A DNA stretch of 64,000 nt from Lachnospiraceae bacterium. Its GTDB lineage: Bacteria > Bacillota > Clostridia > Lachnospirales > Lachnospiraceae. Position 1 is the first letter of the stretch. Each line of letters starts with the position of its first letter. The stretch is taken from NCBI GenBank assembly GCA_015057325.1, contig SVEQ01000004.1:124001-188000 (forward strand), read 5' to 3'. This document shows, one piece after another, positions 58,693 to 64,000 of the stretch. Under the pieces are notes generated by a model that saw nothing but the letters and a program-made list of their open reading frames with translations, had not been told where the DNA came from and did not search any database. Position numbers and translations under genes: made by a program.

Positions 58693-60336
58693 ATGCTTAC
58701 ACCGGTAGATATACAAAACAAAAGCTTCAAAGGCGGAATTGGTTTCGACAAAAGAGACGTTGAACAGTTTATGAACGAAGTACAGGCTGATTACAGTTTG
58801 CTTTATCGTTCAAATGTTGAACTTAAAGATAAGGTTAATACATTAAATGAGAGTCTTCAGCACTACAAATCCATAGAGGATTCTATGCAAAAGGCATTAA
58901 CTTTATCTGAAAAAACTTCTGAAGAAACAATCAATGCAGCCGGAGATAAAGCCAGACAAATAACAACTGAAGCAGAATTTAAGGCTGAATCTTTATTGGA
59001 AAATGCCAGAAAAGAATTAGAAGAACTTAAGAACGAGATATACAGACTCACTCAACAGCGTGATCAATTTAAGGCTCAATTCGCTGACATTCTTAATTCA
59101 GAACTTAAGATGTTAGATGGCGAAATTGTAGATATTGATCTTGGTGATTTCAATCCGTCAGGTAGTACACCTTCAAACAACAGTGAAGGCGGACTTGGTG
59201 GAATGGAAGGAGGACTTGGTGGAATGGAAGGAGGACTCGGCGGTGCATACGCCGGAGCATCAACTTCTAATTTTGAAAGAACTAATCAGTCACCTGCTTT
59301 TGATAGAGGTGCACTTAATACAGATCCTTTTGCTGAAGCTGCTAATGGCGGTGGAAGATTCAGCAAACAAACAGGTGGTAGATACACCAATTCAGACAAG
59401 TCAACTAAAAAAGAGTCCGGCAAGACTTCTCTTAATATTAAAACGTCAAACAGTTCTACCCCTAAGGTAAAACGAGGTGTTCCAATAAGGTCTGTTGATG
59501 AACCAAAGTCTGATTTAACATTAGAGACTAAACCTGTTCCGGAATCGGTGCCAACGCCACAACCTGTTCCAGCTCCGGAACCTGTTAGTCCGGCTCCGCA
59601 ACCTGTTCCAACACCGGAACCTGTTAGTCCGGCTCCGCAACCTGTTCCAACACCGGAACCTGTTAGACCGACGCCGCAACCTGTTCCAACACCGGAACCT
59701 GTTAGACCGACGCCACAACCCGTTCCAACACCGGAACCTGTTAGACCGACGCCGCAACCCGTTCCAACACCGGAACCTGTTAGACCGACGCCGCAACCTG
59801 TTCCAACACCGGAACCTGTTAAAACCGCACCACAGCCTATCAAACCTACCATCAAAACAGATGATGATTTTAAGGTAACACAGGAACAAGCTGATAGTAA
59901 AGCTATGGATGAGTTTAATGCAACTGTTGCTAATATCAAAGCGGCTATGATGAAATCTGAACAAAAAGAAAATGAAGATTCACGGCCAATTGTCGGTGAG
60001 GTTGAACCTAAAAAAATAAAAGAATCAAATATGATTGATTCTGCCGATAATCATTTAGATGAAGGATTTAATTTCTTTGATGATAATGATGAAGATGTTA
60101 CTACTATGACATTTGATTATTCAAATAAAAATGATATTAAAAGTAGTATTCAAACCGGTGGATTTAATTTAAACAACAATAACGACGATGATGAGACATT
60201 GCATGGTGAGGTTGAAACCAGAGTAAAAGAATCAAATATGATTGATTCTGCCGATAATCACACCGGAGGATTTGACTTCATTGTTGGTAATGATTCGGAA
60301 GAATTAGAGATTCCAACAATTATTAATAAGTTTTAG
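58693..60336 (+). CDS. divIVA: DivIVA-domain protein with long Pro-rich, repetitive C-terminus
   Basis: 547 aa, much longer than typical DivIVA (~160-230). DivIVA N-domain at 1-60 (LTPVDIQNKSFKGGIGFDKR, then DVEQFMNEV) and coiled coil to ~145. Then a Gly-rich stretch with GGLGGMEG copies (about 165-188), a disordered Ser/Thr/Lys part, a Pro-rich array of 13-residue repeats PVPTPEPVRPTPQ (about 291-382), and two copies of KESNMIDSADNH (443-454 and 512-523) within an acidic tail. DivIVA binds negatively curved membrane at septum and poles; the tail may recruit partners (inference). Confidence 0.9.
   Translation: MLTPVDIQNKSFKGGIGFDKRDVEQFMNEVQADYSLLYRSNVELKDKVNTLNESLQHYKSIEDSMQKALTLSEKTSEETINAAGDKARQITTEAEFKAESLLENARKELEELKNEIYRLTQQRDQFKAQFADILNSELKMLDGEIVDIDLGDFNPSGSTPSNNSEGGLGGMEGGLGGMEGGLGGAYAGASTSNFERTNQSPAFDRGALNTDPFAEAANGGGRFSKQTGGRYTNSDKSTKKESGKTSLNIKTSNSSTPKVKRGVPIRSVDEPKSDLTLETKPVPESVPTPQPVPAPEPVSPAPQPVPTPEPVSPAPQPVPTPEPVRPTPQPVPTPEPVRPTPQPVPTPEPVRPTPQPVPTPEPVRPTPQPVPTPEPVKTAPQPIKPTIKTDDDFKVTQEQADSKAMDEFNATVANIKAAMMKSEQKENEDSRPIVGEVEPKKIKESNMIDSADNHLDEGFNFFDDNDEDVTTMTFDYSNKNDIKSSIQTGGFNLNNNNDDDETLHGEVETRVKESNMIDSADNHTGGFDFIVGNDSEELEIPTIINKF
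59563..59835 (+). repeat. seven tandem 39-bp repeats in divIVA
   Basis: Units start at 59563, 59602, 59641, 59680, 59719, 59758 and 59797, each 39 bp, encoding PVPTPEPVRPTPQ-like 13-mers; first and last units are diverged. Confidence 0.92.
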
Positions 60337-60872: not shown

Positions 60873-61784
60873 ATGAATTATACTTTGGAATATAATCTTG
60901 ATACTTCAATAAGAATTGATAAGTATATAAATGACAACATCCCTGAATTATCAAGATCATATATACAGCAACTCATATCAGATAATAATGTACTTGTTAA
61001 TGATCACACCTGCAAATCCAATTATAAATGTAAAGTCGGTGATGTGATTAGTATATCCTATGAAGAACCGAAAGAATTAGATGTCGTTGCTGAAAATATT
61101 CCTATTGATATAGTCTATGAAGATAATTCTATTCTAATAGTCAATAAACCAAAGCATATGGTTGTTCATCCTGCCGCAGGTCATGCATCAGGTACGCTTG
61201 TCAATGCGTTGTTATATCATTGTAAAGATTCCTTATCATCAATTAATGGAGTAGTAAGACCCGGTATTGTTCATAGAATTGATATGAATACTACAGGTTT
61301 GCTTGTTATATGCAAAAATGATAATTCACATAAAATACTTAGTGAACAATTAAAGGAACATTCAATTACAAGAAAATATCATGCAATTTGCTATGGTAAT
61401 TTCAAAGAATCAGAAGGAACTGTCAATGCACCTATAGGAAGACATCCTGTAGATAGAAAGAAGATGGCTATTAATAAAAAAAATGGAAGAGAAGCAATCA
61501 CTCATTACAGAGTGCTTGAAAATCTCGGACAGGGTTTCTCATATATTGAATGTACTTTGGAAACCGGAAGAACTCACCAGATACGTGTTCACATGTCTTC
61601 AATTGGCCATCCATTGCTTGGTGATGATGTATATGGACCCAAGAATCCTAAAATAAAGGACCTTGAGGGGCAAACATTACATGCAAAAGTATTAGGTTTT
61701 ATTCATCCGGACACAGGGAAATATATGGAATTTGATTCAGAACTTCCAATATATTTCCAAGATTTACTGAATAAATTACGTTAA
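60873..61784 (+). CDS. rluD: RluA-family 23S/large rRNA or tRNA pseudouridine synthase (RluD-like)
   Basis: 303 aa. An S4 RNA-binding domain at 13-75 (RIDKYINDNIPELSRSYIQQ) precedes the RluA catalytic domain with nucleophile D137 in HRIDMNTTG, a slight variant of HRLDxxTSG. GRTHQIRVHMSSIGHPLLGDDVYG is intact. The lspA-rluD order is conserved in Firmicutes. The last bases overlap the convergent recombinase gene by 4 bp. Confidence 0.93.
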   Translation: MNYTLEYNLDTSIRIDKYINDNIPELSRSYIQQLISDNNVLVNDHTCKSNYKCKVGDVISISYEEPKELDVVAENIPIDIVYEDNSILIVNKPKHMVVHPAAGHASGTLVNALLYHCKDSLSSINGVVRPGIVHRIDMNTTGLLVICKNDNSHKILSEQLKEHSITRKYHAICYGNFKESEGTVNAPIGRHPVDRKKMAINKKNGREAITHYRVLENLGQGFSYIECTLETGRTHQIRVHMSSIGHPLLGDDVYGPKNPKIKDLEGQTLHAKVLGFIHPDTGKYMEFDSELPIYFQDLLNKLR

Positions 61785-62842
61785 TTTTTGTTATGTTTTT
61801 CACGAAGAGTGACTGCATCCTTTGCCTTCATTCTTTGCCAATCATCAATATCAGCATAATGTTTCTTTGTAGTATTAACATCTTTATGACCTAAAACATC
61901 TGCCACAAGGTAAATGTCTGATGTTTGCTGATATAACGATGTACCATAAGTACTCCTTAATTTATGAGGAGTAATTTTTTTAAGCGGAGTGGTTATTGCA
62001 GCATATTTCTTTACCATATTTTCAACGCTTCTTACAGATATTCTTTTTCTTTGCGAACTCAAAAACAAAGCATTTTCGTGACCTTCAACAGTTACAACTT
62101 CCTTACGTTCTGTAAGATAATCAAGTAGAGCGTCCTTTGCTTCATCACCGAAGTATACATAAGCTTCATAACCACCTTTTCGAACAACTTTAATACGATC
62201 ATAATCAAAGTCAACATCGTTTATATCAAGGCCTACACATTCAGAAACACGAATACCTGTTCCAAGCATAAGTGTAAGCAATGCCAAATCTCTAACTTTA
62301 TTCTTTTCATGATATTTTTGTTGATGATTACTTAATTTATTGCCGTATTCGACATTATCAAGAAATTGAGCAACCTCATTAGGCTCCATACGTACAATTG
62401 CTTTACTGTGTAATTTGGGCATTTCTACAATTTTAGTTGGGTCAGAATCTATTTTGCCATTTTTGAAAAGATAGGCATAGAACATACGTAGAGCAGTAAG
62501 CTTTCTTTTTAAAGCTTTTTCATTGTTTGTGAACTGCTTACCGTCTTTTTCATAGACCTTAAGATAGTCCATATATTCCTCAATGTCTTCAGCTTCTAAC
62601 TGGTCAATTACAGAAAGTGGAACTTCAGAAGTTGATTTACCTTTTAGTGACGGATTAGACGATATTAAAAACTCAAAAAAAGTTTTTATGTCTCGTGCAT
62701 AACCAAGTCTTGTTCTTGGTGCCTTTGAATATTCAATTGCACGAAAATAACTTGAAACATATTTGGGCAGTTCCGAAAGAACATCCCTCATTAATAATAC
62801 ATTATGAATTTCTTCTTGTTCATGATAAGTCTTATCTGCCAT
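61781..62842 (-). CDS. xerS: XerS-like tyrosine recombinase
   Basis: 353 aa, reading leftward from ATG at 62840-62842. N-terminal SAM-like core-binding domain (about 25-130) with VPLSVIDQLEAEDIEEYMDY, which resembles XerS of streptococci. The catalytic set is complete: R198 (TGIRVSE), K222 (RKGG), H293 and R296 (HKLRSTYG), H319 (GHKDV) and Y329 (HYADI). Length fits the single-recombinase XerS (about 356) rather than XerC/XerD (about 300). XerS resolves chromosome dimers at a dif-like site often next to its gene; such an imperfect inverted repeat lies 17-49 bp upstream here. A phage-integrase role cannot be excluded. Confidence 0.82.
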   Translation of the reverse strand: MADKTYHEQEEIHNVLLMRDVLSELPKYVSSYFRAIEYSKAPRTRLGYARDIKTFFEFLISSNPSLKGKSTSEVPLSVIDQLEAEDIEEYMDYLKVYEKDGKQFTNNEKALKRKLTALRMFYAYLFKNGKIDSDPTKIVEMPKLHSKAIVRMEPNEVAQFLDNVEYGNKLSNHQQKYHEKNKVRDLALLTLMLGTGIRVSECVGLDINDVDFDYDRIKVVRKGGYEAYVYFGDEAKDALLDYLTERKEVVTVEGHENALFLSSQRKRISVRSVENMVKKYAAITTPLKKITPHKLRSTYGTSLYQQTSDIYLVADVLGHKDVNTTKKHYADIDDWQRMKAKDAVTLREKHNKN

Positions 62843-62858
62843 ATTTCACCTCTATATA

Positions 62859-62891
62859 TTTTCGTTAAACCTAACTAGGGTTTTGCGAAAA
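62859..62891. other. dif-like imperfect inverted repeat upstream of the recombinase gene
   Basis: Left arm TTTTCGTTAAACC (62859-62871), 7-bp centre TAACTAG, right arm GGTTTTGCGAAAA (62879-62891). The arms match at 11 of 13 positions. Two recombinase-binding arms around a 6-8 bp exchange region are the layout of Xer recombination sites. It could be the chromosomal dif or a hybrid attachment site formed by an integrated element. Confidence 0.6.
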
Positions 62892-62914
62892 CGAAAGTTG
62901 TAAACGAGAGTGTT

Positions 62915-62972
62915 AGTTATCTGCTAAAATACATAGCATTTCCCAACGAGTATTTTAGCACGGTAGATAACT
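62915..62972. repeat. 18-bp bulged hairpin
   Basis: AGTTATCT + GCTAAAATAC (62915-62932) pairs with GTATTTTAGC (62950-62959) + AGATAACT (62965-62972). All 18 pairs are perfect, with a 5-nt bulge ACGGT and a 17-nt loop. It lacks a T-tract on either side, so it is not a standard terminator. It resembles packaging or origin hairpins of ssDNA phages. Confidence 0.65.
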
Positions 62973-62987
62973 ATTTGCAACAACCCC

Positions 62988-63000
62988 GGTTTAACGAAAA
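62988..63000 (-). repeat. second inverted copy of the dif-like arm
   Basis: GGTTTAACGAAAA here is the exact reverse complement of the left arm at 62859-62871. Its own second arm is poorly preserved. It may be a second Xer-binding half-site or a remnant attachment site. Confidence 0.55.
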
Positions 63001-63005
63001 TGTTT

Positions 63006-63037
63006 TTGGATTGCGTAAAACAATCCAATTTTTTTTT
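63006..63037 (+). terminator. rho-independent terminator before the phage-like genes
   Basis: TTGGATTG (63006-63013) pairs with CAATCCAA (63021-63028), 7-nt loop, followed by nine T. No gene on the + strand lies between rluD and this point, so in situ it has no obvious upstream gene; in a circular phage genome it would close the last operon. Confidence 0.7.
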
Positions 63038-63089
63038 GGAAAAATAAAATAGAAAGGTGTACCCTTTGAGGTGCAAAAGGTAAAAAAAA

Positions 63090-63401
63090 ATGGCTGGTAT
63101 GTTAAAAGGTAGGCTCTATGTTGTAGGTATTGAGGAAAATATTATCAGGGCAAAAAGTCCGACAGAAAAGGATTCTGCTTGGTATCGTTTAACACTTTCT
63201 GACGGTGTTAGTTCCTTTACTTGTACATGCGGTTCTTCGTGGAAGGTTAAGGAGAAGGAAGGTGCTGAAGTTGAGTATAATGTTAATCAGTTGAAACTTA
63301 TGTCCTTGTTTGATATGAGTTTTTCTCCGGATATGTCTTCAGGATATTGTAAGTTAAAATTAAGAACATTTAAGGCTGTCAAAGATATGCCTAGTAAATA
63401 A
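63090..63401 (+). CDS. small protein, candidate ssDNA-binding (filamentous-phage gV-like)
   Basis: 103 aa, no membrane segment, start ATG 63090 with AAAAGG at 63075-63080. Alternating beta-prone stretches (GRLYVVGIEENIIRAK, AWYRLTLSDG, FTCTCGSSW, GAEVEYNVNQLKLM, CKLKLRTFKAVK) fit an OB-fold of the size of inovirus gene V proteins. The position just before a coat-like gene supports this. Homology was not verified; it could instead be another small phage or plasmid protein. Confidence 0.5.
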   Translation: MAGMLKGRLYVVGIEENIIRAKSPTEKDSAWYRLTLSDGVSSFTCTCGSSWKVKEKEGAEVEYNVNQLKLMSLFDMSFSPDMSSGYCKLKLRTFKAVKDMPSK

Positions 63402-63435
63402 ATGTTAAAAAATAATAAGAAAGGGGATTTTTAGC

Positions 63436-63624
63436 ATGGGTGGTTTATTTCTTGAAGGTGGTGCATCTTCTGCTAGTGCAGCAGTAACTGAGTTGCTTTC
63501 GATTGGTTCAACTTGTGTATCTTGGATTATGGAAAATTCACTTTTAAGTGTTGTTTTTGCTGGTTGTCTTATTCCGGTTGCTTTCCGTATTATCAAGAGT
63601 GCAAAAAATGCAGCAAAGAACTAA
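63436..63624 (+). CDS. candidate major coat protein of an inovirus-like prophage
   Basis: 62 aa. Start ATG 63436 behind AAAGGGGA. A small-residue N-terminus (GGASSASAAVTELLS), one hydrophobic helix (about 27-50: VSWIMENSLLSVVFAGCLIP) and a short basic C-terminus (RIIKSAKNAAKN). This is the exact layout of filamentous-phage major coat proteins, which sit in the membrane before virion extrusion with the basic end binding DNA. No typical signal peptide, as in several Firmicutes inovirus coats. A strong terminator follows. Confidence 0.6.
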   Translation: MGGLFLEGGASSASAAVTELLSIGSTCVSWIMENSLLSVVFAGCLIPVAFRIIKSAKNAAKN

Positions 63625-63646
63625 TTGTTTGATAATCTCACTTTTG

Positions 63647-63684
63647 AGGGTATGAGGTTTTTATGCCTTATGCCCTTATTTTTT
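63647..63684 (+). terminator. strong terminator after the coat-like gene
   Basis: AGGGTATGAGG (63647-63657) pairs with CCTTATGCCCT (63666-63676), two wobbles, 8-nt loop, then TATTTTTT. Filamentous phages have their main terminator exactly here, between major coat and minor coat genes. Confidence 0.85.
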
Positions 63685-63705
63685 AGATATTAGAGAGGTG
63701 CTTTT

Positions 63706-64000
63706 ATGAAAAAGTTTTTTATATATATTTTTATTTTTGTTTTATTTATGAGTAATAAAGTATTTGCAAGTGGTGCTAATGGTGCTGATGATGTTGAATT
63801 GCCTAGTCCTACGGTTAGCGATTTTGGGTATTGTACAAAAGGCTATTTTATTGGGTTCTCTTCTAATGGGGATATAGTGGAAATGACTATTACTGCAAAG
63901 TCTAATCAAGGTTTGTATTTGGTTAATAATAATGGCGGTTATGTTCTATATACCACAAATAGTAGAGATTGTTCTTTCTCTAAACTAGATAAACCTTCAA
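63706..64000 (+). CDS. secreted protein, cut by window end (candidate minor coat/adsorption protein)
   Basis: 98 codons are visible and the frame is still open at 64000. ATG 63706 follows GAGAGGTG. A clear signal peptide (residues 1-21, MKKFFIYIFIFVLFMSNKVFA, cleavage before SG) leads into a Gly/Asn/Ser-rich, beta-prone domain with Cys 43 and Cys 91-region. Position after the terminator parallels the gene III adsorption protein of filamentous phages. Without the C-terminus, which should carry a membrane anchor, the role is only a guess. Confidence 0.5.
   Translation, partial: MKKFFIYIFIFVLFMSNKVFASGANGADDVELPSPTVSDFGYCTKGYFIGFSSNGDIVEMTITAKSNQGLYLVNNNGGYVLYTTNSRDCSFSKLDKPS

Follow-up and report, generated by a model that had tools for sequence, protein, structure and literature searches.

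The window analysed here, 64,000 nucleotides at positions 124001-188000 of contig C17 of genome G000 (3.05 Mb in 24 contigs), ends inside a complete-looking inovirus (filamentous phage) prophage, whose left end occupies window positions 62859-64000 and which, as sequence comparison shows, sits in the chromosomal dif next to a XerS-like gene. We consider this element best explained, with a probability of roughly three in four, as an integrase-less inovirus prophage that entered the host dif as folded (+) single-stranded DNA by means of the XerS-like recombinase. Among viruses, integration as folded single-stranded DNA is known from CTXphi, where XerC cleaves and XerD only helps. If the same holds here, a one-recombinase host would test what confines the reaction to one strand, the mechanism would reach from Proteobacteria to Firmicutes of animal guts, and reading the dif locus would offer a way to recognise filamentous prophages in such hosts. 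The genome also carries a second, related inovirus, so that two integration routes (dif versus an ssrA integrase) occur side by side in a single host.

Gene content of the prophage

The first-pass annotation of the window had proposed the left end of an inovirus-like prophage at 62859..64000, and this proposal is borne out; its left coordinate proved to be the first base of the attachment core, and every feature it described (a 103-aa ORF, a 62-aa ORF, a terminator, and a signal-peptide ORF) was found (Table 1). It had also placed the element in a Lachnospiraceae-type host, and this is supported: the family (f1) to which the genome belongs has members, G363 among them, that are recorded as Lachnospiraceae. 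Enterocloster is likewise a genus of Lachnospiraceae. The accompanying remark that such phages are little described in these hosts is fair, with the reservation that Enterocloster inoviruses have already been published (PMC10061712). Extending the contig rightward past the window (L003, in which position equals window position minus 59999) revealed the Zot-like ATPase and replication initiator that had been expected there, 1.4-3.4 kb past the window end. Measured core to core, the prophage is 5,203 bp long, in keeping with the total of ~5-10 kb that had been predicted and within the inovirus range, given as ~4-12 kb in the accessible text of PMC10061712.

From left to right, the element comprises attL with the hairpin, genes for the 103-aa and 62-aa proteins, the terminator, the 400-aa gene, ORFs of 47, 54, and 46 aa, and the gene for the 296-aa Zot-like ATPase; a 243-nt structured intergenic region, the 301-aa initiator gene, ORFs of 43, 66, and 60 aa, and attR follow. 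The Zot-like protein begins with a helix (2-17), which would be its membrane helix, and bears FGSGKT and LDEAS, which we take to be its characteristic motifs, the former as Walker A. It matched PHROG 20922 (E 9.4e-6) and, weakly, PHROG 1675, 'protein I of M13' (E 0.0046), and a profile built from nine sequences reached 2r2a, the Zot domain of Neisseria (PDB), at E 2.4e-5, with the next match at E 0.16. Searches with its AlphaFold model (pLDDT 71) ranked the two 2r2a chains first and second (E 3.1e-9 and 5.1e-9), ahead of other P-loop ATPases (TMq 0.45; 107 chains at E <= 0.001). The initiator matched Pfam PF23343 (REP_ORF2-G2P) at E 4e-12 and contains WHVHGLL, in which we see by eye what is presumably the HxH motif. 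Together, the Zot/pI ATPase, the G2P-type initiator, the gene order, and the size support an element of Inoviridae/Tubulavirales type.

The candidate coat and adsorption proteins stand out by position, by size, and by likeness to those of the second inovirus of the same genome (L048). The 62-aa coat-like protein shares 37% identity (E 1e-5) with the same-position protein of L048, and the 400-aa pIII-like protein, which has a signal peptide and a C-terminal anchor (both by eye), matches its counterpart at E 1.5e-29. Searches of Pfam, PHROG, and NCBIfam gave no match for the 103-aa protein and no family match that counts for the major-coat-like, adsorption-like, and other small proteins; an alignment of proposed single-stranded-DNA-binding proteins was discarded as not credible (11-18% identity). 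In the ten ORFs of the element other than the 43-aa one, PHROGs and Pfam gave no match to a recombinase or integrase. The element stands out in GC skew (+0.27; host flanks, +0.02 and -0.16), and the terminator scan found two sites, compared with a mean of 0.6 in shuffled sequences. The intergenic region between the Zot-like and initiator genes (L003 6254-6496) is strongly structured as single-stranded DNA (z -8.3) and is a candidate origin or packaging signal.

Table 1. Features at the left end of the prophage and beside it, with one small ORF from further right (window coordinates unless marked L003)
Feature	Position	Strand	Basis
xerS-like tyrosine recombinase gene, host, 353 aa, adjoins dif	61781..62842	-	NCBIfam XerS NF003462 best model
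Folded attP region: hairpin flanked by inverted dif-like copies, coding (+) strand	62856..63003	+	DNA fold of L003:2856-3012
attL: left dif arm, 9-nt centre (script; dif = 4), right arm; attP1 copy	62859..62889	+	empty site in L007
attP2: second dif-like copy, inverted	62978..63000	-	site parsing
Terminator-like stem	63006..63028	+	terminator scan
103-aa protein, putative; position of phage ssDNA-binding protein	63090..63401	+	position; no family match
62-aa major-coat-like protein	63436..63624	+	similarity to L048 counterpart
Terminator separating coat and adsorption genes	63645..63678	+	14 pairs (G-T allowed), T-rich tail
400-aa pIII-like protein, start within window	63706..64000, on to L003:4909	+	similarity to L048 counterpart
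43-aa ORF	L003:7408-7539		by eye

The dif site and its xerS-like neighbour

The core pattern has only two matches genome-wide, and these are the two ends of the element. A congener, G010, has the corresponding empty site (L007), in which the left flank joins the right flank through a single core copy; the 5,203 bp are missing from G010. The flanks, L003 286-2873 and 8060-8262, have their counterparts in L007 side by side, at 86.6 and 86.8% identity and with an overlap only at the core, and the xerS-like protein of G010 is 97% identical to that encoded here. The right junction keeps an intact dif, equal to that of G010 over 32 bases (the search string); this dif consists of a TTCGTTAAAC-type arm, a 4-nt centre, and a GTTTTGCGAA-type arm, the two arms being near-symmetric by eye.

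The same arrangement recurs in congeners. Of 14 of their loci examined by script, 13 have a dif with a 4-nt centre no more than 1.5 kb from xerS, and the remaining one (L009) is cut off by its contig end within the site. When GC skew is taken in 5-kb bins, each of the 22 bins through dif is positive (+0.05 to +0.22, the last two being partly prophage) and each of the 14 bins past it negative (-0.10 to -0.28). By position and conservation, the core is recognisable as dif.

For the adjoining recombinase, the best NCBIfam model is XerS (NF003462, E 7.3e-68), yet its score of 228.9 bits falls under the cutoff of 267, and we therefore call it XerS-like. Of 25 further genomes in the genus, 14 have full-length matches at 79-97% identity, and because xerS is present without the phage in congeners, we ruled it out as a phage gene. 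From its adjacency to dif, we infer that the XerS-like protein is the acting recombinase. The genome also encodes XerD (346 bits against a cutoff of 329.6); XerC was not found in a recombinase search of the genome, a search that was not exhaustive, since it missed the integrase of L048 as well.

Several observations concern the surroundings of this locus. Nine congeners (G004, G007, G008, G011-G014, G017, and G021) have no close XerS-like gene, their best matches being 24-33% identical; Xer systems may differ within the genus, or assemblies may be incomplete. At about position 1401 of L018 (G022), dif apparently lies 3' of xerS instead of 5', as would follow from an inversion of the gene. On the right side of dif, L003 8262-12068 holds a sortase-like gene and a gene for a 1050-aa pilin-like wall protein, both under curated cutoffs, and window positions 58693-60336 encode a 547-aa protein with a long PVPTPEPVRPTPQ-type repeat tract and a start that we take to be DivIVA-like.

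Inverted dif-like copies and the proposed route of entry

At the left end of the prophage, an inverted dif-like copy lies 118 nt from the junction copy (between 10-nt cores), and base-pairing between them on the coding strand encloses a hairpin (z -5.6; none of 200 shuffles was as stable). The same design was found in six prophages (L003, L049, L050, L057, L104, and L111) and in two apparently circular phages (L071 and L075); z values for the folded attP of relatives are -7.4 in L049, -7.1 in L050, -5.5 in L057, -6.6 in L071, -8.0 in L104, -10.2 in L111, and -5.7 in L075, low in part by construction because the stretches were picked for their inverted copies. L049 (the same as L087) and L050 (the same as L088) both belong to G363 and L057 to G079, while L104 and L111 are named records; all lie beside a Zot gene. 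L071 and L075 are IMG/VR phages with matching ends of 14 and 99 bases, neither of which gave a match to four recombinases; in L075, it is the right arm that pairs on the outside. Between L049 and L050, two stem pairs are altered on both sides and 98% of cells are paired, compared with 35-53% when slid; the covariation count for this pair is not above the shuffle control (135/500).

The two copies were also compared in the length of their centres. By script, the junction copy has a centre of 9 nt in L003, 7 nt in L104 and L057, and 5 nt in L049, L050, and L111, and the internal copy one of 5 nt in L003 and L050 and 4 nt in L104, L049, and L057, with L111 unparsed; by eye, internal copies have 4 nt throughout, allowing an inserted arm base in L003 and L050. 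Centres in the circular phages, also by eye, are 7 and 4 nt in L075 and 4 and 4 nt in L071, and the far-end dif has 4 nt in seven of seven cases observed. The phage runs in the sense of dif in L003 and L104 and in the opposite sense in L049, L050, L057, and L111, orientations that under the folded model would be top- versus bottom-strand exchanges. We infer the host side in L049, L050, and L111, because their contigs end early—before the far junction in the first two and ~200 nt past the outer hairpin copy in L111.

We propose that rolling-circle replication would yield a circular (+) single strand, which would fold and bring attP1 and attP2 together in a short duplex mimicking dif. The XerS-like recombinase, a one-protein Xer as opposed to XerC/XerD, would synapse this duplex with dif and exchange one strand beside the left arm, and host replication would turn the product into a double-stranded prophage. 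With attP split and an over-long centre in the junction copy, the prophage should be locked in, the working dif staying with the host at the right end, and fresh virions would be supplied by replication starting from the prophage and by Zot-driven extrusion. Entry by the host's own enzyme is suggested by the folded DNA end at dif, and the proposed CTXphi-like integration of folded single-stranded DNA by the XerS-like recombinase is well supported by comparison.

This proposal must be weighed against integration of the double-stranded replicative form at attP1 or attP2, as in VGJphi-type phages, with the hairpin serving, say, as minus-strand origin or packaging signal. Such a route would agree with attP2, which is dif-like on its own with a centre of 4-5 nt, as well as with L071, whose two copies both have 4-nt centres by eye, and L050, whose copies parse alike; the hairpin, moreover, would be expected on the same side whichever inverted site is used. 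We nevertheless regard it as unlikely, since recombination in L003 involved attP1, whose centre exceeds that of dif by 5 nt and is poorly spaced for a duplex site, since in four of the six prophages the script finds the longer centre in the junction copy (the two being equal in L050), and since the pairing of inverted copies, needless to a duplex, recurs with diverged sequence. The host's XerD, which scores above its family cutoff, might instead be the enzyme, alone or together with the XerS-like protein. Against this, dif adjoins xerS in the genus, its near-symmetric arms suit a single recombinase, and XerS-like genes (E < 1e-100) lie in the flanks of 6 of 38 named zot loci (L087 and L120 being repeats); we consider use of XerD quite improbable. 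That the element is no phage at all and instead a cassette for conjugation or secretion that encodes Zot-like and Rep proteins would fit its small membrane-type proteins without family matches. Its size, gene order, Zot fold, G2P initiator, and coat-like protein, together with the deposition of 11 of 12 fetched related records as complete circular Inoviridae, make this very hard to credit.

Searches for the folded design beyond these cases gave mixed returns. No hairpin pair was found in L112 (one site, centre 4) or L119 (two similar sites), one end is off the contig in L052 and L122, no dif-type site was found in L056, and 12 phage records (chosen from sets of 10 and 26) gave no convincing arm pair and one weak match. 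A strict paired-arm pattern (gap 42-72) matched in none of the 397 family genomes and, with gaps of 90-120 added, in three viral-contig stretches with no Zot in the available part, a failure that reflects mismatches or other gaps in the true sites. A loose arm-pair search also matched host DNA (L011 and L013) and 5 of 240 shuffles, with unlikely matches in L094 and L124. When hairpins accompanied by a third copy were sought without a motif, 9 of 47 loci were positive, compared with 0, 2, and 1 in shuffled controls, although L092, L093, L101, L102, and L106 among those nine may be chance.

Known systems and relatives

The element resembles CTXphi in lacking an integrase, in its insertion at dif, in an inverted attP pair hairpinned on the (+) single strand, in one long centre, and in the regenerated dif. 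In CTXphi, as described in the accessible text of PMC3089051, attP1 and attP2 are inverted ~90 nt apart, with centres of 12 and 6-7 nt against 6 in dif, and one functional dif is regenerated (PMC3089051, PMC5357621); CUS-1 and Ypf phages are given there as further IMEX that fold as single-stranded DNA (PMC3089051). CTXphi uses XerC/XerD, whereas the dif here is paired with a XerS-like gene in a Lachnospiraceae host; in addition, only the Zot fold and initiator type match known families, and relatives show both orientations relative to dif. Given the XerS-like gene at dif, the presence of XerD, and the absence of XerC from a non-exhaustive search, we describe the element as working like a CTXphi-type IMEX and do not file it as a member.

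The recombinase and its site recall the XerS/difSL system of streptococci and lactococci, with a protein of ~356 aa (353 here) adjoining dif at the skew switch; they differ in a score under the XerS cutoff and in a 4-nt centre by our own parsing, as against the 11 bp given for difSL in the accessible text of PMC5357621, a text in which no phage entry by XerS appears. LME-1 of Legionella, a single-recombinase IMEX that uses XerL (PMC9765430), is likewise a mobile element that occupies dif in a host with a single recombinase, bounded by an altered dif on one side and a wild-type dif on the other; unlike the present element, it is described neither as a filamentous phage nor as having a folded single-stranded site in the portion of that paper available. 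The Enterocloster inoviruses are similar as prophages with pI and direct-repeat flanks in Gram-positive gut bacteria; the accessible passages of PMC10061712 give no integration route, and its main text does not mention Xer. Several papers, in their accessible parts, place inoviruses at the dif of Gram-negative hosts with XerC/XerD. A literature search covering titles and the starts of abstracts (supplements and most subscription papers being beyond its reach) returned no CTXphi-type integration in a XerS-type host among the matches listed, and none for XerS in Lachnospiraceae.

Relatives of the Zot-like protein were found in 9 of 397 family genomes including its own (one, in G200, weak and with stops), by profile in 5 of 26 genus genomes including its own and 1 of 5 in the genus of G363, and at 18 viral-contig loci and 38 named loci, 5 of the latter repeating loci already counted. 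A nine-sequence alignment was too divergent, and a five-sequence one worked; as a lone query, the element's own Zot found nothing in genome contigs or viral contigs, and in viral-contig scans the Zot of L071 found only L071 itself and that of L049 nothing. Dif-type sites were present at 10 of 76 loci, compared with 3 of 380 shuffled, though the one at L108 resembles a chance match and three others of the set duplicate loci already used. XerS-like genes (E < 1e-100) were also present in 4 of 10 regions around Zot relatives. Tyrosine integrases akin to that of L048, L051, or L054 were present at L048, L051 (the same as L118), L054, L077, L078, L091, L094, L106, and L123; only the integrase of L048 was compared with Pfam, and distant flank recombinase matches (e.g., L096, L098, L108, L116, and L124) were not counted. 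Such integrase-bearing relatives insert at sites other than dif. The L048 inovirus itself (L048 1816-9333; G000:C12, ~138,815-146,332), whose Zot is 39% identical to that described here, has its own tyrosine integrase and lies between 22-bp repeats of the ssrA 3' end.

On a Zot tree of 60 rows, the nine dif and nine integrase labels require four changes, all forced by starred branches, so that the integration route has been swapped several times; the labels are also clustered, just 18 of 500 shuffles being as low as four changes. The branch of L057 is very long and its placement unsure. We lean cautiously towards a broader reading: that a Lachnospiraceae inovirus group enters the chromosome in folded single-stranded form, using a XerS-type recombinase of one protein and with no need for the division between XerC and XerD, that the long centre marks the exchanged strand and locks the prophage, that this route has been swapped with integrases on the tree, and that, as the different core of the L095 hairpin suggests, the same plan serves other dif types of Clostridia.

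Three further loci deserve mention. In L095 (2770-2921 and 11426-11482), an inovirus locus of a Clostridia MAG, a very stable hairpin (z -11.8) carries inverted copies of another core, which recurs where the contig ends; this locus may follow the folded attP plan with a different type of dif. L056 (7725-9924; G038) has a Zot gene near a XerS-like gene, cut short by a serine-recombinase-like ORF (by eye). Finally, in L053 (4919-11950; G410), an inovirus lies between dnaA-like and rpmH-like genes (by eye) with a flanking 15-bp repeat, and encodes an HTH_38 protein, presumably IS30-like, with an rve match just under the cutoff.
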